28,297 nt of DNA from a virus. Below the pieces are notes generated by a model. It was not told the DNA's origin. It ran no database searches and worked only from the letters and a program-made list of their open reading frames with translations. Positions within the stretch are counted from its first letter, which is position 1. Each line of letters starts with the position of its first letter. The stretch spans positions 1-28,297 of the IMG/VR virus record IMGVR_UViG_3300035682_000149; one strand, written 5' to 3'. A program made the translations under genes and the position numbers. Below, piece by piece: positions 9,882 through 28,282 of this stretch.

Positions 9882-10123
9882 TTCACACCTCCTTTCGGCG
9901 ACAACGGCACCCTGATTTTCGCTGTCGCTCTCTCAAGCGTAACAGCGTGCGCGAATCCTGGTTCACCAGTTCGCGCTGTTATACTACGTATAACGGTCAG
10001 ATCGACAGTAAGGTGCCTTACTATCCACCGCAGCGGACTGTTAGAAATGACGGGTTCAAATGGGTTCAAGCCGATTTGCACCCGAGGTTCAAGACATGCT
10101 TGGATGACGGGTTCAAATTGCAT
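9878..10123 (-). CDS. Possible small ORF over a repeat-rich region (81 aa)
   Basis: This ORF fills the gap between the primase gene and 9881. It overlaps both neighbours (11 bp and ATGA), and its last codons encode the Shine-Dalgarno of the next gene, as in the confirmed gene downstream. However, the DNA holds extensive inverted and direct repeats and the product resembles no family. The peptide FEPVI occurs twice because of a 15-bp DNA repeat in phase. It could equally be a control or origin region. Confidence 0.3.
   Translation of the reverse strand: MQFEPVIQACLEPRVQIGLNPFEPVISNSPLRWIVRHLTVDLTVIRSITARTGEPGFAHAVTLERATAKIRVPLSPKGGVK
9941..9994. promoter_or_regulatory. Inverted-repeat cluster upstream of the 9881 gene
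   Basis: GTTATAC-TAC-GTATAAC at 9978 to 9994 is a perfect 7-bp inverted repeat with a 3-base centre. Directly beside it, AACAGCG at 9941 and CGCTGTT ending at 9980 bracket nested arms CGAA/TTCG and CTGG/CCAG, giving an interrupted long palindrome. It is a plausible operator or origin-type structure. Confidence 0.45.
10047..10118. repeat. GTTCAA iterons with a perfect 15-bp repeat
   Basis: The 15-mer at 10047 to 10061 recurs exactly at 10104 to 10118, 57 bp apart. GTTCAA cores start at 10054, 10064, 10087 and 10111, spaced 10, 23 and 24 bp (about one and two helical turns). The cluster overlaps the 3' end of the primase-helicase gene, a common place for iterons of a replication origin. That origin role is inference. 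Confidence 0.45.
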
Positions 10124-12143
10124 GATTACACCCCCTCCACAGGCGAGTTGCTTTGTCGAAGATGAGCGGTGAACCCTTCTTCATGTTGGCGAGGCAGTAG
10201 AAGACCCGCTGGGCTTCCTTGAGCGTGCAGTCGCCATCAATCTCGGCGATCCGGTCAGAGATGAACGCCAGCACAGCCGACTCCTGGGGGACACGTCCAT
10301 TGGCCAGTGGCGGCATGTTCTCGACCGCCTTGCCGAAGCGGTCTGCCATGCTGCCCATCTTGTAGGTCGCCTTCGCCTTCTCGCTCTTGGGATTGCCCTG
10401 GGGAGCCTTGAGTTGGGCAGGATCGGCGTTCCGGTCGGTGATGAAGATCGACTCACACCAGCGAACGACGAACGGCTTCACGGGCGGCAGGGCACGCAGC
10501 GTGAGGTCGATGACATGCGCGTCGTCTTCCTGGTGAGGCGTCATGGTCAGGATCACGTCGGGGTCACGGGCGAACACACCCGAGCCGCCGATGCGGTCGA
10601 TGGACTCCTTGCCCGCCTGGTTGCCCTTGGAGAAGTGCGCGCCGAAGACGGCCGCAGCCCCGGACTTCGCCGCCAGTTGCTCGACCTCGTTCAACAGGCT
10701 GGCGATGTCGCCGGCGTCGTTTTCGTTGCGTGCGCCGAGGCCCTTGTAGATCGGGTCGATCAGGATGAGGGAATACCCGGTGTCGCGGATGCGCCCGAGG
10801 ATTTTGGGGATAAGCGCGGAGAAGTCGGTGGCATGGCCGCGGAGGTTCCAGATGTCGAAGCCGGTGAAATCCGCTATCTCCTTCGCTGCCGCAATTCGGG
10901 TGATCCGGTATTGCAGCGCAAACGCAGGCAGCTCGAAGTTCAGATACAGGGCGCGGCCACGGTGCGTCGGAAATCCCCACCACGGCGAGCCGGTGGACAC
11001 CGAGAGCATGAGGTCGATCAACGACCAGCTCTTGCGCGCCTTCGACGGGCCGCCCAGCACCATCTTCGCTCCTTGGTGCAGGATGCCATCGACAAGCTGC
11101 GGCGGCTCCGGTTCCGGCTGCCCCATGAAGGCATGACCCGGGAGAATCGGCGGCAGGTCGGAATTGGCATGAGCCGCTTCCCATGCCGTCCACGACTCCG
11201 CTCCAAATTCGAGCGCGAGCAATGTCTGGCGACGGACATCGCCATCGACCGTGCGCCAACCGTCCGGGCAACGCGACAGGCGCGACGGATTCCGGTTCTG
11301 CTTGTCCAGGTTGATCCCGGAAAACCAGCCCCAGATGATTTCGACGCGGCGCTTGTATTCCTTCTCATCCGGCGCATCGACCCGGATCCATGCGTGCAGG
11401 CTCTTGTTGCCAGAGTCGATCAACGCCGCAACCGGCATGCCGCTGGCGACGACAGCGTGGTATTGCTCTTCCTTGGGGATCTGCTTGCCCGCCTCGTCGC
11501 GGTCGAACTCGACCAGCACATGGCGGTATGCCGTGACATCTTCGTTCTTCGCCCCGCCCTTGGTCATCGGATTGATGCGAAGGAACAACCCGAGCTTGGT
11601 GCCGAAAGCGCGGTCGATGCCGCCCTTTGCAGCCACCTTGGATTTCCACTCGCTCGCGGTGAGCGTGACACCACGGCGCGGAACGATTTCGCCCTCCTCG
11701 TTTTCCGCCGCCGGGGAAATGGCGACGAATTCATCCGGCTGGAAGCACGCGTCGAGGAGTCTAACAAAGCCGTCGTCGATAGTGACCGGCAGCGCCATCG
11801 TGGATCGTTCGCGGTGGACCGGCGCGGGTGACGGTCGCCTGGTCGGTGCGGGCGATGAAACTTTCGGGGTCGGTGCCATGCCCGCGCCAAGCGGTTCGCG
11901 TGACGTGCGGGCATAGACCGAGCGGATGGTCGTCCGCGCTTCGGATTCGGTGAGTCCGTCGGCCAGTGCGCGGGCGAGAAGTTGACCTTCCGTTTCTTCC
12001 AGCGGGTGGCCGGCGTCGCGGAACTGACAGGTCGCATCAAAGAGTTCGGCATTGCGCATGCCCTCGCTCGCGCCGCGCTGGAGGTATTCCAGCGTGCGGC
12101 GCGGCAAGGCCATGGTTAGCCCAGGTGATCGGTATTTTGCCAT
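10113..12143 (-). CDS. Primase-helicase: RepB-like primase fused to RepA-like AAA ATPase
   Basis: This 676-residue protein has three parts. Residues of about 1 to 110 are a helical and Pro-rich N-terminus. Residues of about 120 to 320 are a RepB-like primase with VEFDRD (D214 and D216), IDSGNKSLHAWI and NRNPSRLSRCPDGWR. From about 340 there is a RecA-like ATPase with Walker A GGPSKARKSW (K371) and Walker B LILIDPIYKG. GAHFSKGN and GGSGVFARDPDV are further RepA-like signatures. A protein that both synthesises primers and translocates is typical of phage and plasmid replicases. It is the probable core replication protein of the element. The start lies 6 bp after the helicase gene. An internal ATG at 12113 is a possible alternative. 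Confidence 0.88.
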   Translation of the reverse strand: MAKYRSPGLTMALPRRTLEYLQRGASEGMRNAELFDATCQFRDAGHPLEETEGQLLARALADGLTESEARTTIRSVYARTSREPLGAGMAPTPKVSSPAPTRRPSPAPVHRERSTMALPVTIDDGFVRLLDACFQPDEFVAISPAAENEEGEIVPRRGVTLTASEWKSKVAAKGGIDRAFGTKLGLFLRINPMTKGGAKNEDVTAYRHVLVEFDRDEAGKQIPKEEQYHAVVASGMPVAALIDSGNKSLHAWIRVDAPDEKEYKRRVEIIWGWFSGINLDKQNRNPSRLSRCPDGWRTVDGDVRRQTLLALEFGAESWTAWEAAHANSDLPPILPGHAFMGQPEPEPPQLVDGILHQGAKMVLGGPSKARKSWSLIDLMLSVSTGSPWWGFPTHRGRALYLNFELPAFALQYRITRIAAAKEIADFTGFDIWNLRGHATDFSALIPKILGRIRDTGYSLILIDPIYKGLGARNENDAGDIASLLNEVEQLAAKSGAAAVFGAHFSKGNQAGKESIDRIGGSGVFARDPDVILTMTPHQEDDAHVIDLTLRALPPVKPFVVRWCESIFITDRNADPAQLKAPQGNPKSEKAKATYKMGSMADRFGKAVENMPPLANGRVPQESAVLAFISDRIAEIDGDCTLKEAQRVFYCLANMKKGSPLIFDKATRLWRGCNHAI

Positions 12144-12149
12144 GGGGGA

Positions 12150-13667
12150 TCAGCGGTGTGCGAATTGGGTGTCGAGGAACGCTTTGGCTTCTTCGAAGGT
12201 GGCGATTTCCGGGCGTTGGTGGCCGTAGCGGCGCATCACGCGGACTTGTTTCGGCGTCGCCAGACCGAGCTTGCGACGGGTGATGAGGCGGTCGAGGATC
12301 AGCGACGCGTGCCCCTTGGTGACGATGGCCGCGGTATCCAGGCCGAACTTTTCCAGAACATCGAGCTGCTTTGCAGTGGGCGCGTCCGCCTGCCAGCGCA
12401 TGGTCGGGACATAGTCGGCCAGGGCTGCCTCGTTGAGTGAGACGGCAAGCTCCAGTGGATCGAGCACGCCGCCGCGACGCGTCCGGTTGGCGCGAAGCCG
12501 CTCGGTGAGCGAACGGGTGCGATCCGCATTCACTTCCTCTCGTGCCTCTTCGAGGTCTCCCTCGGCACCGAGTTTTTCAGTGAGTGCCTTCGCGTCCGCA
12601 TCGTCTTCGGCGATCAGGTTCGCTGGCCGCATCAGGCTGTGCTCTCCCGCCTGCCAGAGGAAATCGAGCACGAGCAAATGATCCTTGCCGGGCCAGATCC
12701 GCGTGCCGCGACCAATGATCTGCGAATAGAGAGCACGCACCTTGGTGGGCCGCAGGCACACGACACAATCAATCGACGGCTCGTCGTATCCTTCGGTGAG
12801 TAGCATCGCATTGGTGAGAATGCGCGTCTCGTCCCGCTTGAACCGCTCAAGCGTCGCCTGCCGCTCGGTCGTTTGACCATCGACATGCTCCGCCAACAAC
12901 CCACGGTCGCGACAGATTTCGGAAAAGCGTTTCGACACTGCGATCAAGGGCAGGAACACGAGCGTCTTGCGGTGACGATGTTCCACCATCACATCCGCGA
13001 TCTGTTCAAGATACGGTTCGAGCGCATGGCCGAGGTCATCGGCGCTGAAATCACCCGCAGTGGTGCGCACGCCGCGCAGGTCCATGCCTAACGGAACGGT
13101 CTTGACCTTGATCGGCGAAAGCCATCCCTGGTTGACCAGATCCAGCAACGTCACCTCACAAGCGATGTTCTCGAAGTAGCGACCGAGGTTCTTCTTGTCG
13201 CCACGGTCGGGCGTCGCGCTGACACCAAGCACCTTGGCGTGATCGTGGAAATGACCGAGCGTGTTGAGATAGCTGTCGGCCAGCGCGTGATGAGCTTCAT
13301 CGACGACGACCAGGCCGAAGTGATCCCGCGGCCACCGCTCACGGCGCTTTTCACGCATGAGCGTCTGGACGGAGGCGACGACAACCGGAGCATCTAGTGA
13401 CGCCCTATCTTCACCCATTTCCACCTGAGCCTCGATGCCGGTGGAGGCGCGGAGCTTGTCCACCGCCTGGGTGATGAGTTCCTCGCGGTGGGCGAGGATC
13501 AACGTGCGCTGCGGTTGGTAATCCTGCGCCAAGCGGCTGAACAAAATAGTTTTTCCGGCACCGGTCGGCAGCACGCCAAGCTGGCGGTCGAATTCCTCAA
13601 AGCCCTTGTGGATGTCCTGCCGGGCTTTCATCTGATAGGCGCGAAGGCCCATGGATTGAGTGCTCAA
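12150..13667 (-). CDS. SF2 DEAH-box helicase, TTG start
   Basis: The 505-residue protein has Walker A LPTGAGKT (K39), motif Ia/Ib region TLILAHREELI, DEAH box VVVDEAHHAL (D123), motif III VSATPDRGD near 150, and a C-terminal helicase domain with NAMLLTEGYDEPSID and motif VI SQIIGRGTRIWPGK. The C-terminal 130 residues contain a helical region resembling the tail of phage UvsW/RadD-like helicases. The most likely start is TTG at 13667: AAAGGAGG lies 5 bases before it and the upstream stop overlaps it as TTGA. The alternative ATG 13652 lacks this. It probably unwinds recombination or replication intermediates. Confidence 0.88.
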   Translation of the reverse strand: MSTQSMGLRAYQMKARQDIHKGFEEFDRQLGVLPTGAGKTILFSRLAQDYQPQRTLILAHREELITQAVDKLRASTGIEAQVEMGEDRASLDAPVVVASVQTLMREKRRERWPRDHFGLVVVDEAHHALADSYLNTLGHFHDHAKVLGVSATPDRGDKKNLGRYFENIACEVTLLDLVNQGWLSPIKVKTVPLGMDLRGVRTTAGDFSADDLGHALEPYLEQIADVMVEHRHRKTLVFLPLIAVSKRFSEICRDRGLLAEHVDGQTTERQATLERFKRDETRILTNAMLLTEGYDEPSIDCVVCLRPTKVRALYSQIIGRGTRIWPGKDHLLVLDFLWQAGEHSLMRPANLIAEDDADAKALTEKLGAEGDLEEAREEVNADRTRSLTERLRANRTRRGGVLDPLELAVSLNEAALADYVPTMRWQADAPTAKQLDVLEKFGLDTAAIVTKGHASLILDRLITRRKLGLATPKQVRVMRRYGHQRPEIATFEEAKAFLDTQFAHR

Positions 13668-14026
13668 TGGAACCTCCTTTCCGATACGATGTATTTCGCC
13701 AATTCCCAGACCGGCGGTTTTTCCGAGCATTCGAGCCCGATACATGCGTCAATTCTGAGTGCCTCGCGACCAAGCAGCATGAGTGCGTCATCTGGGCCAT
13801 GAGGATGCCGGCCACATACGTGCCGGAACTCCAATCCATGGGGATCGGCGGCAGCGCGGGCAAATCGCCGCGCATGGACAAGAAGCAGGCTGTGGATGTC
13901 TTCGAGAAATTCGGATACTTCAGCCAACGTCTCTTGGTCCGTCTCAGTGAGTTCCGTCTTGCGAGCAATCTTCGCCACCCGACGTCCAAGATTTCTTGGT
14001 TTGGAATTAGAACGGTTGATTTTCAT
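13664..14026 (-). CDS. Small hypothetical protein (120 aa)
   Basis: The ATG at 14026 (MKINRSNSKPRN) overlaps the end of the DUF669-like gene by 20 bp. A longer start at 14074 is open. The product has a basic N-terminus, a helical stretch LTETDQETLAEVSEFLEDIH and Cys/His positions (CGRHPHG, CIGLEC) that could bind metal but do not form a motif I know. Its stop overlaps the TTG start of the helicase gene, which ties it to the operon. Confidence 0.55.
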   Translation of the reverse strand: MKINRSNSKPRNLGRRVAKIARKTELTETDQETLAEVSEFLEDIHSLLLVHARRFARAAADPHGLEFRHVCGRHPHGPDDALMLLGREALRIDACIGLECSEKPPVWELAKYIVSERRFH

Positions 14027-14468: not shown

Positions 14469-14699
14469 TTATGGATTGGTGGATGGCTCATCGCCCCGCC
14501 CTGAGAGCGGGGTCTTGACGTGGGCTTTCGGCTGGCAGGCATGACGGGCGAGGACGCCACGGGCGGCCTTTTCGGCATCGGCGAGGACCGCGGATGGAAA
14601 CCGCTTCCTGCCCGTCATCCACTCCGCCGCGATCCGCAGGTAATAGGCTCGCGCTGTCGTCTTCCTGAGAATCGGTCTTTGGGATTCTTTGGATCTCAT
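14469..14699 (-). CDS. Small hypothetical protein (76 aa)
   Basis: Coupled to the upstream nuclease gene by an ATGA overlap, which fixes the start. The product is basic and helical (RKTTARAYYLRIAAEWMTGRK, FPSAVLADAEKAARGVLARH) with a Pro-rich tail. It may bind nucleic acid. No family is recognised. Confidence 0.55.
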   Translation of the reverse strand: MRSKESQRPILRKTTARAYYLRIAAEWMTGRKRFPSAVLADAEKAARGVLARHACQPKAHVKTPLSGRGDEPSTNP

Positions 14700-15700
14700 G
14701 ACTTCGGCTTGGTTTTGGATTGCTTGAGGTAGGTCGATGGCGCGGCGTGCTTCACCGACTCCTCGGGAAACGGTTTCTCAGTCGCCATGCGCTGGCTCCA
14801 CAGGTCGCGGAACTTGGAGGCTGATAGATTTCCGTAGGCCGCGAGCACCGGGCCGAAACCCATCGCTGCGATGTGATGGCCGACGGTTTCGCAATCGACG
14901 AACTCGCTGCCTTTGCGCGTGACGAGTTTCCAACCAGGGACCTCGCCGCCGGTCTTGAGTCGCTCGGTGGCAATCTGCTTCGCCCGGTCGCGGAAGTCCT
15001 CGACCACCGCGCAGGCTGCCAGGAATCGTCCGAGCTTTTCCGGGTCGGCGAGCACGGCATCGAAATCGAAGCCGGGTTCCATGACGGTCAGCGTCTCACC
15101 AACCATCGCCAACCGGGCAGGACAGGTATCCGCCTTGGCGCACCAGCCGCAGTATTCACACGGATTCGGCTGCTTCGTGGGATCGTTGAACGATTTGACG
15201 ACCTGATCGACGATGGCATGCGCCTCCTCGTAGGTGAACTTGTGCGTCTCGATCTCGCGCTGGTCGCAGAACAACAGGTGCGCCGTCCACTCGCCGGCAA
15301 AGTGCGCGCCCATCAATCCGAGCGCGTAGGCCGCCATCTGCTCGCGGTAGTTGCGCCGCGCCCCGGTCTTCAGATCGAAGTGGGCGAGCTTGGTCGGCAC
15401 GATGGCATCCGCCGTGCCGGTGAGATTCAGGATCTTCACCCGGCAATCGTCCTCGCGGGCAAGCACCCGCTCGCGGCCGGACATCGCCCGCACCATCGAG
15501 ACCGACCAGGAAACAGCGGCGATCTCGTCAGCAGTCAGCTTGTTGGCGATCACGAACCGTTCTTCGAGTCCGAGCAGTTCGGCGCGGAACGCGGTGTCTA
15601 ACAAGGTGCCGCGCTCGGCAGCGGGGCCGGCCACGGGATTGCTCTCGTAGCATGGGCACATCGCCAGCTTCGGCAGGTTCGATGGACGGAGGGCGCTCAT
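14696..15700 (-). CDS. Cas4/RecB-like PD-(D/E)XK nuclease, probable Fe-S protein
   Basis: The ATG at 15700 overlaps the upstream stop (ATGA) behind GGAGGG. The open extension to 15733 is not used. The 334-residue protein holds C15 and C17 near the N-terminus and a RGTLLD motif near 30. Core active-site motifs are GTAD (D98), HFDLKTG (D109 and K111) and the QMAAY motif (Q121). The segment after residue 180 holds C181, C184, C187 and C193. This matches the Cas4/AddB-type layout of a 4Fe-4S cluster around a PD-(D/E)XK fold (phage-type DUF2800-like). It probably resects ends for the Sak4-like recombinase encoded upstream. Confidence 0.85.
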   Translation of the reverse strand: MSALRPSNLPKLAMCPCYESNPVAGPAAERGTLLDTAFRAELLGLEERFVIANKLTADEIAAVSWSVSMVRAMSGRERVLAREDDCRVKILNLTGTADAIVPTKLAHFDLKTGARRNYREQMAAYALGLMGAHFAGEWTAHLLFCDQREIETHKFTYEEAHAIVDQVVKSFNDPTKQPNPCEYCGWCAKADTCPARLAMVGETLTVMEPGFDFDAVLADPEKLGRFLAACAVVEDFRDRAKQIATERLKTGGEVPGWKLVTRKGSEFVDCETVGHHIAAMGFGPVLAAYGNLSASKFRDLWSQRMATEKPFPEESVKHAAPSTYLKQSKTKPKS

Positions 15701-16758
15701 GGCGTTCCCTCCTTCCGATTGGCGGCGGCCCACTCGTTGACCGTGGCGACGAACCGGTCAGGTTCCGCCAGCATCCGGGCCGCGTAGTCCGGATCCAGGT
15801 TGTCGATGGATTCGAGCGGTCCTTCCTGGGTGTAGCCAAGCTGGCCGCGGGCGACGAGGAAATCGACGACGTTGGCCATGTCCGCCTTGTGCTGGAACGC
15901 GGCGAAGATTCGGTCCGTGAGGGATTCTGCTGGTGCCTGCGCGGTCGGAGCGGGTGAGGCAGCTTGGGCGGCGGCTTCCGTTTTGGCGACGACAGTGCCC
16001 CCCGACACCGTCGCCGCCGCACCGAACACCGGGGCCAGGGCCTCGATGGTGAACGGAAGCTTGTCTGGCAAACCATGACGATTCTTGGCGTCGTAGGCCG
16101 CGCTGTGGTTGGCAAACAGCACACGCTCCTTGCCGCCGACGCCGCGCATCTTGCCGTTGTCCTTTTCCGCGACCTTGGTGACGAAATTGCCGAACAGAAC
16201 CAGATCGGCCCATTCCTTGAGCAAGGGCGCGTTCTGCTTGCTCAGTTTCAGTTCAAAACGGTCATAGCTGCCCGCTTGGTCCGGAGCCTCGAACTTCTTC
16301 ACCGTCGAGTGGGCGAGGAAGACGACGTGCATGCCACGATCCGTCAGGGCATCGAGCGAGGTGAGGAACCGGGCGAACTCTTCGGCGAGGATAACCCAGC
16401 CTTTGCCGTAGCCGAAATCCTCGATGGATTCCTTGTTCGACTTCCGGCACAGGTGCTCGGCCAGGCGCTTCTCAAGCCAGTCCGCGGTGTCGATCACCAG
16501 CGACTTGAACGGGTGATTCGCCTTGGCCAGTTGGGTGACGGCGGCGGTGATTTCCTCCCAAGTGGTCGCCGCATCGAAGCGGGCGACGTCGAGGTGGTGG
16601 GTGCCGCCTTCGGTATCGAGGAAGACGGGTTCCGGTGTTTGGCCGGCGAGCGTCGATTTGCCGACGCCTTCGGGTCCGTAGATGACGACCTTCTGCGGTC
16701 GGGGGATTCGGCCCCGGCGGATGGCCAGGGGATTGGCGGATTTGGTGTTGGTTTGCAT
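15697..16758 (-). CDS. Sak4-like RecA-fold ATPase (phage recombinase family)
   Basis: The first gene of the operon. MQTNTKSANPLAIRRG leads to Walker A GPEGVGKST (K34). LVIDTADWLEK near residue 85 is the Walker B region, and HVVFLAHS near 145 is a sensor-like strand. Its length of 353 residues, and the neighbouring DUF669-like and Cas4-like genes, match phage AAA_24/Sak4 strand-annealing modules. An Ala/Pro-rich linker near residue 260 precedes a C-terminal helical domain. I chose ATG 16758. An in-frame alternative lies at 16782. Transcription comes from the GTGTGAAA operator region. Confidence 0.85.
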   Translation of the reverse strand: MQTNTKSANPLAIRRGRIPRPQKVVIYGPEGVGKSTLAGQTPEPVFLDTEGGTHHLDVARFDAATTWEEITAAVTQLAKANHPFKSLVIDTADWLEKRLAEHLCRKSNKESIEDFGYGKGWVILAEEFARFLTSLDALTDRGMHVVFLAHSTVKKFEAPDQAGSYDRFELKLSKQNAPLLKEWADLVLFGNFVTKVAEKDNGKMRGVGGKERVLFANHSAAYDAKNRHGLPDKLPFTIEALAPVFGAAATVSGGTVVAKTEAAAQAASPAPTAQAPAESLTDRIFAAFQHKADMANVVDFLVARGQLGYTQEGPLESIDNLDPDYAARMLAEPDRFVATVNEWAAANRKEGTP

Positions 16759-16806
16759 CTGGCGAATGCGGCGGGGTGTCAATTGACCGCCGTCGCTTCG
16801 CCTCTG

Positions 16807-16955
16807 TGTGAACGTTCACAACGAGACCGGATTTTTTTCACACATCACACCCCGAGAATCCGCAAACCATTGCAAATCAATGGCAATTGGATTCCTTGCC
16901 GGTGTGGGGCCATGGTGTGAAATTTTCACACATGCCGATTTCGGGGTGTGAAATT
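16807..16955. promoter_or_regulatory. Divergent control region with GTGTGAAA operator cluster
   Basis: Four related sites occur: TGTGAACGTTCACA at 16807 to 16820 (a perfect 14-bp palindrome), TTTCACAC at 16836 to 16843, GTGTGAAATTTTCACAC at 16915 to 16931 (a perfect palindrome with a central base) and GTGTGAAATT at 16946 to 16955. The TCGGGGTGTG word at 16941 to 16950 recurs inverted at 16846 to 16855. The sites lie between the leftward replication operon and the rightward repressor gene. The XRE repressor is the probable ligand. Confidence 0.65.
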
Positions 16956-17036: not shown

Positions 17037-17402
17037 ATGCTTCAAAAATCGCTTGGAGAACGTCTGGCAGAGCTTCGCCATGAGGCGGGTCTGTCGTTGC
17101 GTGAACTGGGCGAAAAGGTTGGCGCATCCGCCCCTCACGTCCGCGATGTGGAGATCGGAAACCGCCAGCCGTCCGAAGCCCTGGTCGAGAAAATGGCCGC
17201 CGCCTTGGGGACCGATCTCGACGACCTGCTCAAATATTCCACCCGTCCGCCGTCGCGGCAGATGGAGGAACTCATCGAGCAAGACACCCAATACAGCCTC
17301 GCCTTCCGCAAATTCGTCGATGCGGTGCGAGAGAAGAACATCCCGCCGTCCGAGATTCTCGATCTCACGGAGAAACTACCGGACAAAAAAGAAGAACCAT
17401 GA
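17037..17402 (+). CDS. XRE-family repressor (CI-like)
   Basis: The ATG at 17037 begins MLQKSLGERLAELRHEAG, a standard XRE HTH: LSLRELGEKVGASAPHVRDVE forms the recognition helices at about residues 19 to 39, and NRQPSEALVEKMAAALG ends the domain. The C-terminal 50 residues are a helical tail (YSLAFRKFVDAVRE) without a peptidase domain. The gene is coupled to the ImmA-like peptidase by ATGA. The operator cluster directly upstream suggests autoregulation. The upstream open stretch (from 16887) overlaps the operators, so it is not coding. In this arrangement the peptidase would inactivate the repressor. Confidence 0.88.
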   Translation: MLQKSLGERLAELRHEAGLSLRELGEKVGASAPHVRDVEIGNRQPSEALVEKMAAALGTDLDDLLKYSTRPPSRQMEELIEQDTQYSLAFRKFVDAVREKNIPPSEILDLTEKLPDKKEEP

Positions 17403-18112
17403 GCAACGTCAGAAACGCCGCTGGTCCTTTCTGTCGGCGACTTTATCTCCACGAAACCCACATCGAGGACGCCTGTCGCACGGCGCTTTCCGCGGTGGAT
17501 CTCATGCCTTCATCGCCAGGCCCCATCCGTGTCGAACGCTTCATCTTCCTGCGCTTTGGCATCGAAGAGGAATTCGAGTCACTGCCCGAGCACATCATGG
17601 GCTGCGCCAAGTTCACGCGGCAGGGACTCAAGCGCATCATCATCAACCGCCAGCTCGCGGAGCAGGATGACATGGTGAGCAAGTTCCGGGTTCGCTCGAC
17701 TCTGGCGCACGAGGCCGGCCATGGGCTTTTTCACACCGATCTTTTTGTTGAAAAACTCAACGTAGAATCCGCCGGGCAGTTGTTCGGCGAGGAAGCAGGC
17801 ATATTCGATAGCGTAACCAAGGACGGTTTCCTGTGCCGCGCCGAGGGAGGAATGCAGAGCGTGCCCAAGTTCGAATGGTGGGAATATCAGGCGAATCTCG
17901 CCATGGCGGCACTCCTGCTTCCCAAGCACCTGCTGATTGAAGCCGCCCGCGCCGAGCTGCCGCGTGTCCTATCCGGCCCCGGATCATTCGAGGATCGGGT
18001 GGCGGAAGCGGAACGCCAGCTTTCCACACTTTTCACCGTGAGCCGCAGGATGGTTTCAATCCGGCTCGGTCCATGGTGGACCGAACAATCCCGCCAACCC
18101 TCGTTTTTCTAA
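17399..18112 (+). CDS. ImmA/IrrE-family zinc metallopeptidase
   Basis: The 237-residue protein has the gluzincin motif HEAGH (H104, E105, H108) in LAHEAGHGLFH. A downstream WWEYQANLAMAALLLP (E162) supplies the third zinc ligand and the typical E-x2-AN-F/LA motif. In ImmA/IrrE systems such a protease cleaves an XRE repressor to induce a mobile element. Here the gene overlaps the repressor stop (ATGA), which supports the pairing. The C-terminal residues (TVSRRMVSIRLG) form a short HTH-like tail. It might instead be a toxin-antitoxin-like regulator of the unknown genes downstream, since it is followed by them after 17 bp. Confidence 0.88.
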   Translation: MSNVRNAAGPFCRRLYLHETHIEDACRTALSAVDLMPSSPGPIRVERFIFLRFGIEEEFESLPEHIMGCAKFTRQGLKRIIINRQLAEQDDMVSKFRVRSTLAHEAGHGLFHTDLFVEKLNVESAGQLFGEEAGIFDSVTKDGFLCRAEGGMQSVPKFEWWEYQANLAMAALLLPKHLLIEAARAELPRVLSGPGSFEDRVAEAERQLSTLFTVSRRMVSIRLGPWWTEQSRQPSFF

Positions 18113-18129: not shown

Positions 18130-19287
18130 ATGAGCAAATCCGCATTTAGACGATTCGGCAATCCTGAGTTCCTCCGGGCAATCAAGCCCAAGAACCTCAT
18201 GACTCTCTTGCGGAGATCTGCTCCATTTTTTGAATCGAAGGGCATCAGCCTCAGCGGCGAAGAACTCAGCCAGGAACAGCTCGACCAATTGTCGGCAATC
18301 ATCGTATCGCCACCCTCCGCTTGCCCTGGGGATTTCCTCGCTGCCGTGGACATGCTTGAAATGCTCACTTCGGGCCCGGGCATCGACGAAATCCGCGTGG
18401 TGGTGCCGGAACTTGTTAAAAAGGTCCATGAGGATAAGGATACGGTCGGCGACATCGTGCTCAAAGTCTGGTTCCTCGAAGCGAAAGCGATCCAGCGCAT
18501 CTACACGAAATTCAGTCTCAAGCGGGACCGGACAATGACGTCGTTCCGTCCAACGGAAGGGAAGAAGTCCGTCGAAATGACCCGGGATGTCTGCCATGCA
18601 ATCACCAAGGATCTTGAATTCGGCTGCTCGGACCTCTTCGATATTCCGGTCTGTGAGGTGATGGCATTTCCCGAAGCCACTGGCTACGCGCTGCTCATTC
18701 GCCATGGCGAACGGGTCAAGAGGATCGAGGTCTTTGATGATAACCACAAACGAGACGTCAAAGCACTCCGCCCGGTGAAGCATGACGTTGGATTCTTCGA
18801 TACCCACACCGGCGAACTGCTGATTACCGGTCGCAGCGATGAGGTGAAAAACACGTATCGCCAGGTCTTTTCCAAGCATCTGTTCGGCGACATCAACACG
18901 CTCAAGCCATCGCAACGCTTCACATTGGAGCCACTTCGCACAGGAAGAGAGTGCCTGAGCCGACCAGAGCTGGAAATGATCTCCTCCTCCCGGCTGCGGA
19001 AGCTGATGCTGCGGCGCAAGGGGACTCCGGACATTACGATGCACCATGGCAACGACGTCTATCGCGAGCTTGAAATCCGGGGACACGATTACATGAAGGA
19101 TTTCGATCTGGTGAAAGCCTCATTCTCGATCCACCTCGCATGGGAGCGCCGGGTGCTTGCCCTCATGATCTCCCCCGAGGATGACAAGATTCAGGGCGAC
19201 ATCCACGATCCCAACGTCCGCATGTGGATGGATGCCTGTAAATTCAACCGCTACCACGAGCATGATGCGCTTCTGGCAATGTCTTGA
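18130..19287 (+). CDS. Unrecognised 385-aa protein, first of a pair
   Basis: The ATG at 18130 (MSKSAFRRFGNPEF) lies 17 bp after the peptidase stop, so both are probably on one transcript. The first 100 residues are helical (FLRAIKPKNLMTLLRRSAPFF, LVKKVHEDKDTV). A beta-rich middle contains CEVMAFPEATGYALLIRHGERVKRIEVFDD and GFFDTHTGELLITGR. Near the end the charged HTH-like block LRKLMLRRKG and a HDYMKDFDLVKASFSIHL stretch occur. I do not recognise the family, and I see no nuclease, helicase or ATPase motif. It is one of two long unknown genes between the lysogeny switch and the restriction system. Confidence 0.75.
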   Translation: MSKSAFRRFGNPEFLRAIKPKNLMTLLRRSAPFFESKGISLSGEELSQEQLDQLSAIIVSPPSACPGDFLAAVDMLEMLTSGPGIDEIRVVVPELVKKVHEDKDTVGDIVLKVWFLEAKAIQRIYTKFSLKRDRTMTSFRPTEGKKSVEMTRDVCHAITKDLEFGCSDLFDIPVCEVMAFPEATGYALLIRHGERVKRIEVFDDNHKRDVKALRPVKHDVGFFDTHTGELLITGRSDEVKNTYRQVFSKHLFGDINTLKPSQRFTLEPLRTGRECLSRPELEMISSSRLRKLMLRRKGTPDITMHHGNDVYRELEIRGHDYMKDFDLVKASFSIHLAWERRVLALMISPEDDKIQGDIHDPNVRMWMDACKFNRYHEHDALLAMS

Positions 19288-20374
19288 CCATTTCGGCCGG
19301 CTCGGGGCGGTCCGGGCATCATGGCAGAAGGAACTTGGCGACGAGTTTCCCGAGTGCCAGCCGTTGTTGCGCGCTGCCGACGTGGTTTATTCCATCGAAG
19401 ACCCGGAATGGCCCGGGCATATCCTGGATCTTGAGCCGCAAGACGACGGCAGCTTTCTCGGATTCAGCCAAGAGATCCCATCCCATCGACCACCGCTCGC
19501 CATCAAACGTGAGGAATGCATCCGGATGGTGCCCAACTTGAACGGGATCGCCGATTTCCTCGGAGGAAAACTTGGATTCAAACCTGCCGACCAACCGAAA
19601 TGGAGTCAGGGTGCCGTCCACGAGATCGGGTCTCATGAGGTCCAACCAGGCGAGCAAATTGCCGTCCACTTGTTCGTTCCCAACCTCACCCCCCGAGAGT
19701 CGGCGATCAAGTCCGCGCTCTGCGATGTCGAATCTTCGATCCTGCTTTTGCCCACCAGTGGTGGATTCACTCAGGATGTGATCACGCTCGCCGCGAAGTT
19801 TGACGTTCGAGTCGTTGTGCTCGGTTCAGCCAAGGGACTGGAGAAACTGTCTATCGCCCCGGCACGGATCAAAGTCAGGGGAATCAGCAAAAAGTCGGTG
19901 CCGCCGATGTTTACGCCGAAAGCTGGCTGGAATTGGAAAGACCTGATGCTGTCCATCGAGCTGGAGGGCTTGCGTTGCCGGATACACGACGACGAGCGAA
20001 TCCGGCCATGGTCTGACATGGGCATCAGGTTGCGGCATGGTAGGCACCCAACCCGGCTACTCCAAATCCTAGGCGATCTCGGAAGGGGCAACCGTATGAC
20101 CCAACGGCGCGGCGATGTGAATGACCGCAAAGCGATTTCCGATGTCCGTATCTTCCTGAAAACCTACGTGATGTCCTTGGATGAGGATCCATTCCACGAG
20201 TTCGAAGACGGATGGGGAATCAAATTCACCGTCAACGACAAGATCGGCAGGCGTCAGGTGAAGACCATCGAAGATGATGAAATCGCCGATAATTCCGATG
20301 ATGACTCGCCATTCACTTATCAGGACGATATAGATCCGGCTGAGATGGCCGGGTTTTCATTCCGTAACACTTGA
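19262..20374 (+). CDS. Unrecognised 370-aa protein, second of a pair
   Basis: The start at 19262 (MMRFWQCLDHF) overlaps the previous gene by 26 bp, which implies coupled translation. Three parts are visible. An N-terminal region of about 110 residues includes DVVYSIEDPEWPGHI, CIRMVPNLNGIADFLGGKLGF and few cysteines. A central alpha/beta-like part has SSILLLPTSGGFTQDVI and DVRVVVLGSAKGLEKL. A C-terminal part looks winged-helix-like (RLLQILGDLGRGN then ISDVRIFLKTYV and GWGIKFTV) with a very acidic tail. It reminds me of an unnamed widespread protein class with an N-terminal metal-binding region, but the cysteines are not conserved here, so I do not assign it. A DNA-binding role is possible. Confidence 0.75.
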   Translation: MMRFWQCLDHFGRLGAVRASWQKELGDEFPECQPLLRAADVVYSIEDPEWPGHILDLEPQDDGSFLGFSQEIPSHRPPLAIKREECIRMVPNLNGIADFLGGKLGFKPADQPKWSQGAVHEIGSHEVQPGEQIAVHLFVPNLTPRESAIKSALCDVESSILLLPTSGGFTQDVITLAAKFDVRVVVLGSAKGLEKLSIAPARIKVRGISKKSVPPMFTPKAGWNWKDLMLSIELEGLRCRIHDDERIRPWSDMGIRLRHGRHPTRLLQILGDLGRGNRMTQRRGDVNDRKAISDVRIFLKTYVMSLDEDPFHEFEDGWGIKFTVNDKIGRRQVKTIEDDEIADNSDDDSPFTYQDDIDPAEMAGFSFRNT

Positions 20375-20400: not shown

Positions 20401-22629
20401 ATGTCCGACGACACTAAGAAACAGCTCCAAACCCAACTCTGGAACATTGCCAACACCCTGCGCGGCAAGATGGGCGCGGATGAGTTCCGCGACTACATCC
20501 TTGGCTTCATTTTCTACAAATACCTCTCCGAACGAATGCACCTCTTCGCGGATGAGATCCTGAAGCACGACGGCATCCAGTTCGACCAGATCGACGAAAC
20601 CAAAAAACAGGGAAAGGAAATGCTCGCCGCTATTCAAGAGGAAGCCATCGTGCGCCTCGGCTATTTTCTGAAACCGTCCGAGCTGTTCCACAAAGTCGCG
20701 GAAAAAGGTGCGCGGAAGACGGACAATTTCATTCTCGGGGATCTGGGTGACATCCTGAAACACATCGAGGCCAGCACCATGGGGCATGCCAGCGAAGATG
20801 ATTTTGAGGGACTGTTCGAGGATCTTGATCTCGGCTCGTCAAAGCTCGGAAAAACCGAGAGCCAGAAGAACGAACTCATCGCCAAGGTGCTCAGCCATCT
20901 CGATAAGATCGACTTCCGCCTCGCCGATACCGAGGCCGACGTCCTGGGAGATGCTTACGAATACCTGATCGGTCAGTTCGCCAGCGGCGCGGGGAAAAAG
21001 GCGGGCGAGTTCTACACTCCGCAGGAAGTCAGCACCATTTTGGCGCGGATCGTCACCACCGGCAAAAAGCGACTCAAGAGCGTTTATGACCCCACTTGCG
21101 GATCGGCCTCACTCTTGCTGCGCGTGGCCAAGGAGGTCCGGGACGTGGGCCACTTCTACGGGCAGGAGATGAACCCCACCACCTTCAACCTCGCCCGCAT
21201 GAACATGATCCTGCACGGTGTCCATTACCAGCGCTTCAACATTAAGAACGAGGACACACTGGAGCATCCTGCTCCAGAGCACGCCGACCTGCGTTTCGAG
21301 GCAATCGTCGCCAATCCTCCATTCTCTGCTAAGTGGTCTGCTAGTGCAGTATTCGAAAGTGATGATCGCTTCAGCGCGTATGGGAAACTAGCTCCATCTG
21401 GGAAGGCCGATTTCGCCTTTGTTCAGCACATGATTCATCATCTCGATTGCTCGGGAACCATGGCTGTAGTTTTGCCGCATGGTGTATTGTCAAGACCTGG
21501 AGCTGAATCTCAAATTCGCCGCTATCTTGTTGGAGACCTGAATTACTTGGATGCCGTCATTGGGCTTCCTGAAAATATCTTCTGGGGCACCGAGATTCCA
21601 GTTTGTATTCTAGTCTTCAAAAAGAATCGATCTAAGAAAGAAAAAGTTTTCTTTATTGATGCGAGTCGAGAGTTCGTTCGTGCCACAAATCAGAACCGCC
21701 TTCGAGAAGAAGATGTTGAGCGCATAGTTCGTCTCTATCGGAAACGTAAAAACATTCCGCATCATTGTCGAGCGGTTTCATTAAAAGAAATTTCAGATAA
21801 TGATTTTAATCTTAAGATACCTTTTTATGTGGAGCAGCCAGATCAAGGGGCCGCTTGGTCGCTACCCGCGCTTTCTAAAAAGCTACGGGAATTAGATGCT
21901 CAAATATCTGCAGCAGACAGAAAAATAGGGAAGTTCTGTAAAATGCTGAAAATTCCACCACCGAAAGGTCAGAATCTCTTTTTTATGCTGAAGTATCGCG
22001 AGGAAATAACTCGAATGTTGTTTAGTCGTGAAATATCCTTTACTACAAAAGGTGGTAATGATTTCCCTGACTGGAAAGAAGCGCCTTTGGAAGAATTGGT
22101 TTCAAAGGTGAAAAGTCGGAATATTTCGTTAGAGCACACACTGGTTCTTACAAATTCGGCAACTCGTGGCATCATTGGTCAGAGAGACTACTTTTCAAAA
22201 GACATCGCCAACAAAAACAACATTGGTGGTTACTACATCGTCCAAACGAACGATTTCGTGTATAATCCCCGCATCTCGGCGTCTGCGCCTGTTGGTCCAA
22301 TTAAACGAAACCATTTGGAAACTGGAATCATGTCGCCTCTCTACCGTGTTTTCCGCTTCAAAGCAGGGTGCTTGGACTACTTTGAAGCATTTTTTGAATC
22401 TACTTTTTGGCATTCCCACATGAAGAATGTGGCGAACTACGGCGCACGTCACGACCGCATGAACATCGGGACAGATGACTTTTACGCGTTGCCGATTCCT
22501 CTGCCAAGTGCTGCCGAGCAAGCCTTAATTGCTCGATTTATTTTGGCTATTACTGACAAGATTTCGCTTTTGAGATTCAACGATGAGGAAAATGAGTCGG
22601 CGGAATCAGAGGACACAGCATTAGTATGA
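20401..22629 (+). CDS. hsdM: Type I restriction-modification HsdM fused to a single-TRD half HsdS
   Basis: The 742-residue product starts MSDDTKKQLQTQLWNIAN, an HsdM N-terminus. AGKKAGEFYTPQEV lies near 200 and SAM motif I, DPTCGSASLL, near 230. Catalytic motif NPPF is at 305 to 308, which gives N6-adenine methylation in this family. From about residue 500 the protein continues into an HsdS-like part: ITRMLFSREISF near 540, then NDFPDW near 552 and a target-recognition domain ending PIPLPSAAEQALIARF, the conserved HsdS helix motif. Only one TRD is present and no separate hsdS gene exists nearby. Two fused subunits could therefore pair to give a symmetric recognition site. The DNA is AT-richer from about 21310 onward. 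The stop overlaps hsdR by ATGA. Confidence 0.88.
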   Translation: MSDDTKKQLQTQLWNIANTLRGKMGADEFRDYILGFIFYKYLSERMHLFADEILKHDGIQFDQIDETKKQGKEMLAAIQEEAIVRLGYFLKPSELFHKVAEKGARKTDNFILGDLGDILKHIEASTMGHASEDDFEGLFEDLDLGSSKLGKTESQKNELIAKVLSHLDKIDFRLADTEADVLGDAYEYLIGQFASGAGKKAGEFYTPQEVSTILARIVTTGKKRLKSVYDPTCGSASLLLRVAKEVRDVGHFYGQEMNPTTFNLARMNMILHGVHYQRFNIKNEDTLEHPAPEHADLRFEAIVANPPFSAKWSASAVFESDDRFSAYGKLAPSGKADFAFVQHMIHHLDCSGTMAVVLPHGVLSRPGAESQIRRYLVGDLNYLDAVIGLPENIFWGTEIPVCILVFKKNRSKKEKVFFIDASREFVRATNQNRLREEDVERIVRLYRKRKNIPHHCRAVSLKEISDNDFNLKIPFYVEQPDQGAAWSLPALSKKLRELDAQISAADRKIGKFCKMLKIPPPKGQNLFFMLKYREEITRMLFSREISFTTKGGNDFPDWKEAPLEELVSKVKSRNISLEHTLVLTNSATRGIIGQRDYFSKDIANKNNIGGYYIVQTNDFVYNPRISASAPVGPIKRNHLETGIMSPLYRVFRFKAGCLDYFEAFFESTFWHSHMKNVANYGARHDRMNIGTDDFYALPIPLPSAAEQALIARFILAITDKISLLRFNDEENESAESEDTALV

Positions 22630-25505
22630 GCGCATCAAAATCTAACATACTCCAGACAATCCAGCCGGAACTTGTGCTGGAGAACGAACTAGTTGCCCAA
22701 CTTGTCGGCTGTGGTTACACGCAGGTGGCAGTAGCAGACGAGGCAACAATGTTGACAAATCTGAAGACGCAACTGGAGGTTTTTAACAGCATAACACTGA
22801 CGGATGAAGAGTTCTCCAAGGTGTTGAACCATTTGACCAAGAGCTCCGGGGTCTTTGAAAAAGCAAAGATCCTGCGTGATCGGATGAAGCTGACGAAGGA
22901 AGACGGTCAGACGGTTTACTTGGAGTTCTTCGACTCAGTAGATCCGCTGCGGAACCGCTATCAGGTGACGCATCAGGTGGCCATCGAGGGCAGCTACAAG
23001 AACCGCTACGACGTCACAATCCTTGTGAACGGCCTACCACTGGTGCAGATCGAGCTAAAGCGGCGCGGGTTGGAGATGAAGGAGGCATTCAACCAGATTC
23101 AACGATACCAGAAGCACAGCTACTGGAGCGCAAAGGGACTTTTTCACTTCGTTCAGATTTTCGTGATCTCCAACGGAGTGAATACGAAGTATTACGCGAA
23201 CGCACGGCGGCAGTCCTTCAAGCAGACCTTTTTCTGGGCTAGCGAGGACAACAAAACCATACGGGAGCTGCCCGCCTTTACCACAGCCTTCCTGAATCGG
23301 AAGCATTTGGGAGAGATGATCGGCAAATACACGGTTCTGAATGAGACGGAAAAAATTCTGATGGTGATGCGGCCGTATCAGTATTACGCCGTTGTTGAGA
23401 TGGTGGAACGCGTAATCCATCCGCCGGAAACCGACCCGAACGGCTACGTCTGGCATACAACGGGATCAGGGAAGACTTTGACCTCCTTCAAAGCAGCGCA
23501 GATCATTACCGGCCTGCCAGGCGTGCATAAGGTAGTCTTCTGCGTGGATAGAAAAGATCTGGATTACCACACGATCAAGGAGTTCAACAGCTTCAGCAAG
23601 GGCAGTGTGGACAGCACCAACAACACTAAGAAACTCGTCAAACAGTTCACCGATGACACGAAGCTTATCGTGACTACGCTGCAAAAGCTGAACACCGCCA
23701 TCAGCAAGCCGCAGTATTTGAAGCAGATGGAGAAGCTGCGGAACGAGCGGATCATTTTTATCTTTGACGAGTGCCATCGCAGCCAGTTCGGTGACACCCA
23801 CAAGCGTATCACGGAGTTTTTCCGCAATCACCAAATGTTCGGCTTCACCGGCACACCGATTTTCGCCGACAATGCGGCGAGCAAGGACGGGAAGAAACAC
23901 ACAACCAAGGATCTCTTTCACAAGAAACTTCACAGCTACGTGATCACGGATGCGATCAAGGACGAGAATGTTCTTAAATTCGCTGTGGAGTATGTGGGCC
24001 GCTACAAGCGCAAGCCCGGCACGGCCACTGAGGTGGACATCGAGGTGGAGGGGATCGACACCAAGGAGCTAATGGAATCTCCGGACCGGCTTGAGAAAAT
24101 CACCGATTACATCATCAAGCACCACGCTGTGAAGACCCGGAACAAGGAATTCACAGCAATGATGTGTGTTAGTTCGGTCGATGTGCTGATCAAATACTAC
24201 GAGCTGTTTGCCAAGCGCAAAGCGGATGGCATGCACAATCTAAAGGTGGCTACAATCTTCAGTTACACCAGCAATGAAGAGGACAAGGACGCCGACGGCA
24301 TCCTCGACGAAGGCGGTGAAATCATCGGCGGCGAGGGCGGCAACCCGCACACGCGTGAGAAGCTCGATGGCTTTATCCGCGACTATAACGCGATGTTCGG
24401 CACGAACTACTCTACCAAGGATACTCAAAGCTTCTACAATTACTACCAAGACATCGCCAAAAAGGTGAAAGAGCGGAAGGTGGACATTCTGCTCGTGGTA
24501 AACATGTTTCTGACTGGCTTTGACAGCAAGATGCTGAATACGCTCTACGTGGACAAGACGCTGCGATACCACGGACTGGTGCAGGCTTATTCTCGGACGA
24601 ATCGAATTCTTAACGAGGTGAAGAGTCAGGGGAATATCGTGGTATTCCGCAACCTCAAGGCTCACACGGATGAAGCCATCGCTCTGTTTGCCAACGTCCA
24701 TGCGAAAGAGGAAATTTTCGTGCCTCCATATGAACAATATGTGAAGGACTTCAACGATGTAGTGACAGCGCTACTCGCTCTAACGCCAAACCCAGGAAGC
24801 GTAAAGAACCTGAAGGACGAGGAGGAAGAGGGGAAGTTCGTCCAAATGTTCCGAAATCTCATGCGGCTGAAGAACATTTTGGAATCGTTCTCTGAGTTTG
24901 ACGCGAATGATCTGACGATGACAGCCCAGCGGTTCGAAGATTTCAAGAGCGCCTATCTTGATCTCTATGAGAAAGTGAAATCTGAGCGCCAGAAGGAAAA
25001 AGCATCCATTTTGGAAGACGTGGATTTCGAGCTGGAATTGATCCACCGCGACATCATCAACGTCCAATACATTCTCACGCTGCTCGCTAAACTCTACGAT
25101 GCGGAAGAATCAGAGCGCCAACAGATCCGCAAGCAGATTCTCGACGGTGTATCAGGTGACATCACGTTGCGCAGTAAGAGCGAGCTGATTCAGAAGTTCA
25201 TCGACAGCAACCTGCCAAAACTTAATTCATCTGCAGAGATTCCCGACAGCTTCGAGGATTTCTGGGAGAAAGAACGGGCGGCGGCATTTGACCGGCTGTG
25301 CAAAGAGGAACAACTCGATGCCGACAAGCTCAAGAAGGTGATCGACCGCTACGTTTACACCGGACAAGAGCCACTGCCCGACCCGGACATCGTGGACCTG
25401 ATCCAGAAGTCGCTGGGCATCCTCGAACGCGGCCCGACGAGAAAACGCGTGCTGGAGAAGGTAGTGGATTACGTGGCGACATACATCCATGGAGTAGCGG
25501 CGTAA
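22626..25505 (+). CDS. hsdR: Type I restriction enzyme HsdR
   Basis: The 959-residue translocase-nuclease has a PD-(D/E)XK domain with D129, E143 and K145 (RYDVTILVNGLPLVQIELK), followed by an SF2 motor. Walker A is TTGSGKT near residue 280. DECH is at 381 to 384, FTGTP lies near 405 and VQAYSRTNRI forms motif VI. A long helical C-terminal part interacts with HsdM in known systems. The full length is normal for HsdR and no frameshift is seen, so the restriction enzyme looks intact. It starts within the hsdM stop codon (ATGA). Together with the HsdM-S fusion it forms a compact two-gene type I system. Confidence 0.93.
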   Translation: MSASKSNILQTIQPELVLENELVAQLVGCGYTQVAVADEATMLTNLKTQLEVFNSITLTDEEFSKVLNHLTKSSGVFEKAKILRDRMKLTKEDGQTVYLEFFDSVDPLRNRYQVTHQVAIEGSYKNRYDVTILVNGLPLVQIELKRRGLEMKEAFNQIQRYQKHSYWSAKGLFHFVQIFVISNGVNTKYYANARRQSFKQTFFWASEDNKTIRELPAFTTAFLNRKHLGEMIGKYTVLNETEKILMVMRPYQYYAVVEMVERVIHPPETDPNGYVWHTTGSGKTLTSFKAAQIITGLPGVHKVVFCVDRKDLDYHTIKEFNSFSKGSVDSTNNTKKLVKQFTDDTKLIVTTLQKLNTAISKPQYLKQMEKLRNERIIFIFDECHRSQFGDTHKRITEFFRNHQMFGFTGTPIFADNAASKDGKKHTTKDLFHKKLHSYVITDAIKDENVLKFAVEYVGRYKRKPGTATEVDIEVEGIDTKELMESPDRLEKITDYIIKHHAVKTRNKEFTAMMCVSSVDVLIKYYELFAKRKADGMHNLKVATIFSYTSNEEDKDADGILDEGGEIIGGEGGNPHTREKLDGFIRDYNAMFGTNYSTKDTQSFYNYYQDIAKKVKERKVDILLVVNMFLTGFDSKMLNTLYVDKTLRYHGLVQAYSRTNRILNEVKSQGNIVVFRNLKAHTDEAIALFANVHAKEEIFVPPYEQYVKDFNDVVTALLALTPNPGSVKNLKDEEEEGKFVQMFRNLMRLKNILESFSEFDANDLTMTAQRFEDFKSAYLDLYEKVKSERQKEKASILEDVDFELELIHRDIINVQYILTLLAKLYDAEESERQQIRKQILDGVSGDITLRSKSELIQKFIDSNLPKLNSSAEIPDSFEDFWEKERAAAFDRLCKEEQLDADKLKKVIDRYVYTGQEPLPDPDIVDLIQKSLGILERGPTRKRVLEKVVDYVATYIHGVAA

Positions 25506-26508: not shown

Positions 26509-27474
26509 ATGCGTATGAATGACCCAACACACTACGACATCATTGCCGACATCCACGGACGCTATGACAAGCTCAGCTCCTTAATGGAGCGCTTGGGCTA
26601 CACTGCTACCGGCGATGGCTTCATCCCTCCTGACGGCCACAAGGCGCTGTTCCTCGGTGACCTGATCGACACCAAGCCCGGCCACCCGTTCCCGGGCGGT
26701 GTCCGCGCCACGCTGAGAGCCGTGAAAGCTATGTGCGACCGTGGCGACGCGCTCTGCTTGATGGGAAACCACGAGTGGAACGCAATCCTGTTCCACACCA
26801 GGGGGCCGAATGGGTGGCTGAAAGAGCATGGAGACCGAAACAAACGCACTCATCAGGGCACGTTGGAGGATTTCCCGGACCATTCCGATCCCGCCAGCGA
26901 ATGGCGCACGATCTGGCTGCCATGGCTGAAAACTCTGCCGATCTCACTCGACTTTGACGGCTTCCGGGCGGTCCACGCCTGCTGGCATACGGAGTTGTTG
27001 GAAATCCTAGAGGGCAAGAGCCCGGGCGACGACGGCTTCCTTCTAGCTTGCACCGACAAGAGCACGCCCGACTACAAAGCCATCGAAGCGGTGCTCAAGG
27101 GCATCGAAGTGCCTTTGCCCCCTGGCCATTCCTTCACTGACCACACGGGAACCGAGCGTTTCCAGTTCCGCTCCCGCTGGTGGGAAGCTCCGTCCGCTGA
27201 GATTACTTGCAGCGAGCTTGTGTTTCCTGCCAGTGAACAGATCAAACCGGTTCCAGTGACTCCTGCGGCAAGGGCAATGTTCAGCCCATACCCGCCCGAC
27301 GAGCGCCCCGTATTCTTCGGCCACTACTTCAAGCCCGCCGATTCCCCGGCCCATCCTGAGCGCCACAATGTCGCATGTCTTGACTACTCAGCGGCCACCG
27401 GCGGCCCGCTCGTCGCCTATCGCTGGAAAGGCGAAGCCAGCATCAACCCCGAACACTACGTCTTTCACTCATGA
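26509..27474 (+). CDS. Metallophosphoesterase, calcineurin-like (PrpE/ApaH-like)
   Basis: The 321-residue protein has the metal-binding signature of calcineurin-like phosphatases: DIHG (D14, H16) in IIADIHGRYDKL, GDLID (G50 and D51) and GNHE (N87, H88), then VHACWH near 155 and FFGHYF near 270. GDLIDTKPG replaces the usual GDxxDRG. Relatives hydrolyse phosphoproteins or diadenosine tetraphosphate, but the substrate is not visible. It is divergent from the LysR gene and overlaps the next gene by 4 bp. The second Met (26515) is an alternative start. This may be a host-signal or nucleotide-signal hydrolase carried as cargo. Confidence 0.85.
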   Translation: MRMNDPTHYDIIADIHGRYDKLSSLMERLGYTATGDGFIPPDGHKALFLGDLIDTKPGHPFPGGVRATLRAVKAMCDRGDALCLMGNHEWNAILFHTRGPNGWLKEHGDRNKRTHQGTLEDFPDHSDPASEWRTIWLPWLKTLPISLDFDGFRAVHACWHTELLEILEGKSPGDDGFLLACTDKSTPDYKAIEAVLKGIEVPLPPGHSFTDHTGTERFQFRSRWWEAPSAEITCSELVFPASEQIKPVPVTPAARAMFSPYPPDERPVFFGHYFKPADSPAHPERHNVACLDYSAATGGPLVAYRWKGEASINPEHYVFHS

Positions 27475-28194: not shown

Positions 28195-28282
28195 TGGCGG
28201 AGGGGGTGGGATTCGAACCCACGGAACCTTTCGGCTCTCCAGTTTTCAAGACTGGCGCAATCGACCACTCTACCACCCCTCC
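28195..28282 (-). tRNA. tRNA-Ser (anticodon UGA)
   Basis: On the minus strand the acceptor GGAGGGG pairs with the matching CCCCTCC strand. The anticodon arm CCAGT-CTTGAAA-ACTGG gives anticodon UGA. A long variable arm (class II) and the T arm GTGGG-TTCGAAT-CCCAC follow, then discriminator G and an encoded CCA at 28195 to 28197. The 3' end faces the element, as expected for an insertion site. Confidence 0.95.

Follow-up and report, generated by a model that had tools for sequence, protein, structure and literature searches.

A conserved gene pair, one member with a predicted RdgC/RexA-type fold, in the immunity region of Verrucomicrobiota temperate phages

What role can be assigned to two long, overlapping genes that lie between a repressor-peptidase pair and a restriction system and resemble no recognised family? 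The genes are carried by a 28,297-base IMG/VR virus contig, the whole of which was examined and is referred to here as the window. A preliminary description had singled out the two genes, designated here P1 and P2, as a candidate undescribed defence or regulatory cassette. The features on which the analysis draws are as follows.

10113-12143, minus strand: phage primase, phage replication operon
12150-13745, minus strand: phage DNA helicase, phage replication operon
14696-15733, minus strand: phage exonuclease, phage replication operon
15697-16782, minus strand: Sak4-like annealing protein, opening the divergent phage replication operon
16807-16820, no strand: operator-like palindrome TGTGAACGTTCACA, adjoining the Sak4 start
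16867-16883, no strand: inverted repeat CCATTG-CAAAT-CAATGG, between both operators and shared by many relatives that belong to two operator types
16915-16931, no strand: operator-like palindrome GTGTGAAATTTTCACAC, a spaced pattern of which 0.09 are expected by chance in the window
17037-17402, plus strand: XRE-family (CapH-like) repressor candidate (HTH_31, 6e-15; PADLOC capH, 1.9e-14)
17399-18112, plus strand: ImmA/IrrE-type (CapP-like) metallopeptidase (Peptidase_M78, 2.8e-5; HEAGH motif; PADLOC capP, 5e-5)
18130-19287, plus strand: P1, 385 aa, predicted to adopt an RdgC/RexA/CENP-N-type fold; the N-terminal part is helical (about residues 13-170) and is followed by two alpha/beta repeats, at about 175-252 and 284-369
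19262-20374, plus strand: P2, 370 aa, soluble, with a central alpha/beta domain and a winged-helix-like C-terminal part (low confidence)
20401-22629, plus strand: cargo HsdM, ending in a half-size specificity (TRD) domain
22626-25505, plus strand: cargo HsdR (EcoR124-type)

The gene pair is real as previously described, with proteins of 385 and 370 residues encoded by frames that overlap by 26 bp, the first starting 17 bp past ImmA; the distance from P2 to hsdM, earlier given as 27 bp, is 26 bp, with the hsdM ATG at 20401. Both genes are under purifying selection (dN/dS 0.11-0.16, three relatives compared) and their arrangement is retained in distant homologues, and they are therefore more than chance open reading frames. 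No useful match to P1 or P2 was obtained in Pfam, NCBIfam, PADLOC, PHROGs or PDB sequences, and the aligned relatives likewise lack a Pfam match, which bears out the earlier view that neither protein is recognisable. The models of PADLOC-DB 2.0 did not match P1-P2, and profile searches against solved structures, run with deep alignments of each protein and of the C-terminus of P2, returned nothing; a weak WipB match of P1 (E 0.05) disappeared once profiles were used. No promoter consensus was found in the operon region, where the consensus used may not apply.

The genetics of the pair are well supported. A profile search of 388 Verrucomicrobiota genomes located P1 in 20 (~5%). With each genomic place counted once, enough downstream sequence was available for 44 P1 genes: six window-type (L003 being frameshifted), six intermediate (L041-L046), 12 third-type (L017 being truncated), 19 distant, and one short fragment (L068, a 111-aa frame). 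P2 is the partner of P1, mostly overlapping it, in 43 of these 44 places, the fragment L068 being the exception, and conservation as a pair was thus borne out. Distant P2 members were partly assigned by position first; leave-one-out profiles recover these position-assigned members with E values of 1e-17 to 1e-38. Distances among P1 proteins correlate with those among P2 proteins at r=0.96-0.97 (r=0.96 over 27 loci). One locus encodes a natural P1-P2 fusion of 709 aa in an open frame (L092:7152-9281), and another has a 265-aa protease-like gene inserted between P1 and P2 (L086:7414-8211). An apparent fusion in L003 was rejected, as P1 there carries a frameshift. Searches of phage and plasmid record collections returned no copy of the pair.

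The window is a record of a Verrucomicrobia temperate phage, and P1-P2 sit in its immunity region. Phage-type genes for Sak4, exonuclease, helicase and primase make up the left arm on the minus strand, and close relatives of P1 or P2 come from Verrucomicrobia/Akkermansiaceae metagenome-assembled genomes and virus contigs. Because the locus in one relative, G002 (L003/L023), runs on into terminase, portal, head protease and major head protein genes, the carriers are prophages and not chromosomal defence islands. Within the clade of the window the layout is fixed, with primase, helicase, exonuclease and Sak4 reading leftward, then the operators, then (XRE-ImmA), P1, P2 and cargo reading rightward. 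Distant pairs are located in the early regions of other prophages or mobile elements, next to tyrosine integrases (L089, L093, L094), serine recombinases (L078, L080, L081, L083), AlpA-like (excisionase-like) HTH and ERCC4-nuclease genes (L090-L092, L094-L096) or Sak4 (L089, L093), all neighbours except Sak4 having been named by reading protein sequences. A tRNA-Ser gene near the right end of the window (28195-28282) is a possible attachment site; so is a second tRNA-Ser gene, whose anticodon differs, where the cargo of the G222 prophage ends (L021:12734-12823). Between the restriction-modification genes and the tRNA lies a calcineurin-like phosphoesterase (26509-27474) akin to the PNKP phosphatase domain, with a LysR regulator on the opposite strand; these may be prophage cargo or host genes.

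The divergent promoter region of the clade contains two palindromes at fixed places, TGTGAACGTTCACA and GTGTGAAATTTTCACAC about 109 bp apart in type 1, TGTGTGAGTCCTCACACA and ATGTGTGAGAGTCCTCACACAT about 120 bp apart in the intermediate type, and CGGACATGTCCG or close variants 86-98 bp apart in the third type. Operator type (TGTGAACGTTCACA, TGTGTGAGTCCTCACACA or CGGACATGTCCG) matches module type with no exception. Relative to the window, XRE, ImmA, P1 and P2 are 88-98, 91-96, 77-82 and 76-80% identical in type 1 and about 77, 69, 52 and 39% identical in the intermediate type; in the third type XRE and ImmA are absent, P1 is 22-27% identical, and P2 is 23-27% identical or undetected by tblastn. 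Sak4, exonuclease, helicase and primase remain about 67-95% identical to those of the window across the whole clade, and P1 distances are uncorrelated with those of Sak4 (r=-0.01) and correlate at about 0 or below with those of exonuclease and helicase. Since the replication genes stay alike while operators, repressor and P1-P2 vary together, we conclude that the latter exchange as a block. Heteroimmune lambdoid phages differ in the same fashion, the immunity block being swapped and the replication genes retained. Equivalents of the inverted repeat at 16867-16883 occur in L002, L003, L005, L006 and L033, with paired changes in L002 (CCGTTG..CAACGG). Between Sak4 and P1 of L047 (7600-7800), tandem repeats of about 19 bp (TATGTCCGATGACCTGCGA type) resemble operator half-sites.

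XRE proteins bind palindromes, and M78 peptidases cleave XRE proteins. The XRE and ImmA genes, which overlap by 4 bp, precede P1-P2 in the window and in the XRE-bearing types; they resemble CapH-CapP, ImmR-ImmA and DdrO-IrrE in that an XRE gene and an M78 metallopeptidase gene with HExxH are adjacent upstream of P1, but differ in being located in a phage immunity region. They are also missing from about half of the same-clade phages, which retain P1-P2. The third type has no repressor gene at this position, and no obvious alternative was seen among ten early genes of one such prophage, where the only HTH-tailed protein is encoded far away.

Different genes follow P2 in different phages. Type I restriction-modification genes are present in the window, L029 and (by sequence) L014, BREX in L003, L004 and L016, DISARM DrmD in L007 and probably L020, type III restriction-modification in L044, DNA methylases in L006, L034, L041 and L045, and a NERD-kinase protein in L015, in addition to unknowns. 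Directly behind P2, the L020 gene (1330-4632) encodes an SNF2 helicase that is a relative of the DrmD of L007 and may include a PLD domain. Because the first genes behind P2 vary in this way, the restriction-modification system of the window is one of many interchangeable loads, and the special link to restriction-modification suggested earlier was not upheld. The window HsdM contains a Methylase_S match at residues 634-734, a single half-size target-recognition domain, and is thus an HsdM-HsdS fusion; hsdM is followed by hsdR, and a separate hsdS gene was not seen between the two.

The variety of cargo raises the alternative that P1-P2 are a dedicated regulator of the downstream defence genes, like CapK-CapS, CapH-CapP or BrxR, and that their location in a phage is incidental. 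CapK-CapS are likewise two genes upstream of diverse immune operons (PMC13373217), and P2 may combine alpha/beta and winged-helix domains. However, CapK is an HTH-STAS-GHKL kinase and CapS a 184-aa STAS-wHTH protein (PMC13373217), and no GHKL match was obtained by Pfam in P1 or its relatives; the WYL domain that marks BrxR and CapW was absent from P1, P2 and their relatives in the Pfam search. The palindromes are located upstream of Sak4, XRE or P1 and not between P2 and the cargo, and the distant pairs have no evident defence cargo. P1-P2 are neither CapK-CapS nor a known PADLOC system, and a dedicated cargo regulator is highly improbable.

To what does P1 correspond structurally? An AlphaFold model was computed from 12 natural sequences (pLDDT 77.7, pTM 0.64), and Foldseek comparison with the PDB returned E. 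coli RdgC as the best match (2owl, E=2.4e-5, probability 1.00), with a second RdgC structure also matching (2owy, E 3.5e-4). The 50 PDB matches listed are headed by 18 that all belong to RdgC or to the inner kinetochore (human CENP-N, yeast Chl4 and, by chain letter, one CENP-L). TM-scores are about 0.25-0.54. RexA is not among the 50 matches listed, where RdgC and CENP-N/Chl4 appear at probability ~1.0. Chl4/Iml3 resemble RdgC and TBP (eLife, PMC4080450), and lambda RexA shares the RdgC/Chl4 fold and dimerises (PMC11077077). An attempt to establish kinship from sequence failed: P1 showed no similarity to RdgC or RexA beyond decoys (43/222 decoys score as high as RexA in profile-profile comparison), PF04381 (RdgC) was not matched by Pfam in P1 or any aligned relative, and RexA and RdgC themselves show no sequence similarity to each other beyond decoys. 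With the sequence scores within decoys, the link is structural and comes from one predicted model, by which P1 is predicted to have an RdgC/RexA/CENP-N/Chl4-type DNA-clamp fold. With such a fold, P1 probably acts as a clamp on double-stranded DNA, either by dimerising or in combination with P2. A structural match to a known family was obtained for P1 at the level of fold (RdgC/CENP-N) and none for P2.

RdgC is a recombination-associated protein, and its standing as best fold match, together with the location of P1-P2 directly upstream of Sak4 and in the same direction in L089 and L093, would suit an accessory role in recombination or replication, in which P1-P2, as an inhibitor or loader like RdgC, would act alongside Sak4 and exonuclease. 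This appears quite improbable: in the window clade P1-P2 belong to the opposite, rightward operon, and co-evolution with Sak4, exonuclease or helicase is not apparent from the correlations given above. P1 further differs from RdgC as a phage immunity-region gene with a constant partner. CENP-N and Chl4, the next-best matches, also have a helical N-terminal part followed by beta-rich repeats, and with CENP-L/Iml3 a CENP-N-type protein works as half of a DNA-linked heterodimer; these are, however, eukaryotic kinetochore proteins, and P2 gave no CENP-L-like match.

The P2 model has a pLDDT of 71.4, is good only for about residues 1-190, and gave no significant match in the PDB or BFVD. The C-terminal third resembles a winged helix by eye and in this low-confidence model, and profile searches with the C-terminus did not confirm it; P2 may be a winged-helix protein. 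Paired, zinc-ribbon-like cysteines in the N-terminal part of distant P2 proteins have been lost in the window clade. An Mrr-like nuclease was rejected for P2, the resemblance being one of motif, with neither catalytic residues nor a significant fold match, and a CapS-like STAS-wHTH protein was set aside because the topology permits it but no match supports it.

P1-P2 are a constant two-gene module of the Verrucomicrobiota temperate-phage immunity region, placed like rexA-rexB behind cI; the gene order on the lambda map is cI-rexA-rexB. The likeness to RexA-RexB and to actinophage Rex-like pairs lies in two genes beside a CI-like repressor in the lysogenic operon, with early genes divergent across operators, and would extend to the RdgC/Chl4 fold of RexA (PMC11077077), predicted here for P1. 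P1 differs from RexA in its extra helical N-terminal part and lack of detectable sequence similarity. RexB has four membrane helices, whereas P2 is soluble and unrelated (maximum 19-residue hydropathy 1.26 versus 2.39 for RexB; no membrane segment). Defence cargo follows P1-P2, unlike the lambda and actinophage genes, and the hosts are Verrucomicrobiota. Because sequence similarity to RexA and a RexB-like membrane partner were both looked for and not found, P1-P2 are not filed as RexA-RexB. Among the papers searched, none joins RexA with Verrucomicrobia prophages.

Rex-like actinophage pairs exclude other phages (PMC11077077), which raises the alternative that P1-P2 are themselves a superinfection-exclusion or abortive-infection system, the constant defence among changing ones in the lysogenic operon. 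The operon indeed continues into defence systems, and P1-P2 swap as a cassette independently of flanking genes. On the other hand, motifs of toxins, nucleases or membrane proteins are absent from both proteins, PADLOC gives no match, and the near-invariant residues appear structural. The pair is present in every clade phage examined and in distant prophages without evident defence cargo, and the operators change along with P1-P2, which exclusion alone would not need. We regard an exclusion system as rather unlikely. Of the cassette originally proposed, an undescribed and tightly conserved unit in the operon behind XRE-ImmA stands, and regulatory is the better half of its label; a stand-alone defence cassette is not supported.

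RexA-type proteins bind DNA. We favour, with moderate confidence, the explanation that P1-P2 bind DNA as a pair in Rex-like fashion and tune the lysogeny switch in prophages carrying swappable defence cargo in the lysogenic operon. Lambda RexA, which lies beside cI, shows no sequence preference in its DNA binding and biases the CI-Cro switch (PMC11077077), and by analogy P1-P2 would work like a Rex module. In the prophage state, the XRE repressor, where present, would keep the leftward replication operon shut; meanwhile the XRE-ImmA-P1-P2-cargo operon would be on, and the lysogen would produce P1-P2 plus the defence cargo. Upon removal of the repressor by ImmA, P1-P2 would act at or near the operators and bias the switch, and they may additionally exclude other phages. 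In the XRE-less type, the CGGACATGTCCG operators would be read by P1-P2 or by another protein. A direct repressor role for P1-P2 is conceivable because the third type lacks XRE-ImmA and P1 and P2 are the only constant genes of the rightward operon. We consider it unlikely that the lysogeny repressor of XRE-less phages is P1-P2 itself, with an RdgC/CENP-N-fold protein and its winged-helix partner reading the CGGACATGTCCG operators.

If P1-P2 were such a repressor, they would represent a previously undescribed class of phage repressor and a prokaryotic counterpart to the CENP-N-type DNA clamp. Under the favoured Rex-like reading, a gene pair present in ~5% of the sampled Verrucomicrobiota genomes (20/388) acquires a role that can be tested, and the slot behind P1-P2 is marked as a place at which these prophages swap entire defence systems that are under lysogenic control. 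P1-P2 suggest that Rex-like RdgC-fold proteins recur in phage immunity regions far beyond lambda and the actinophages.
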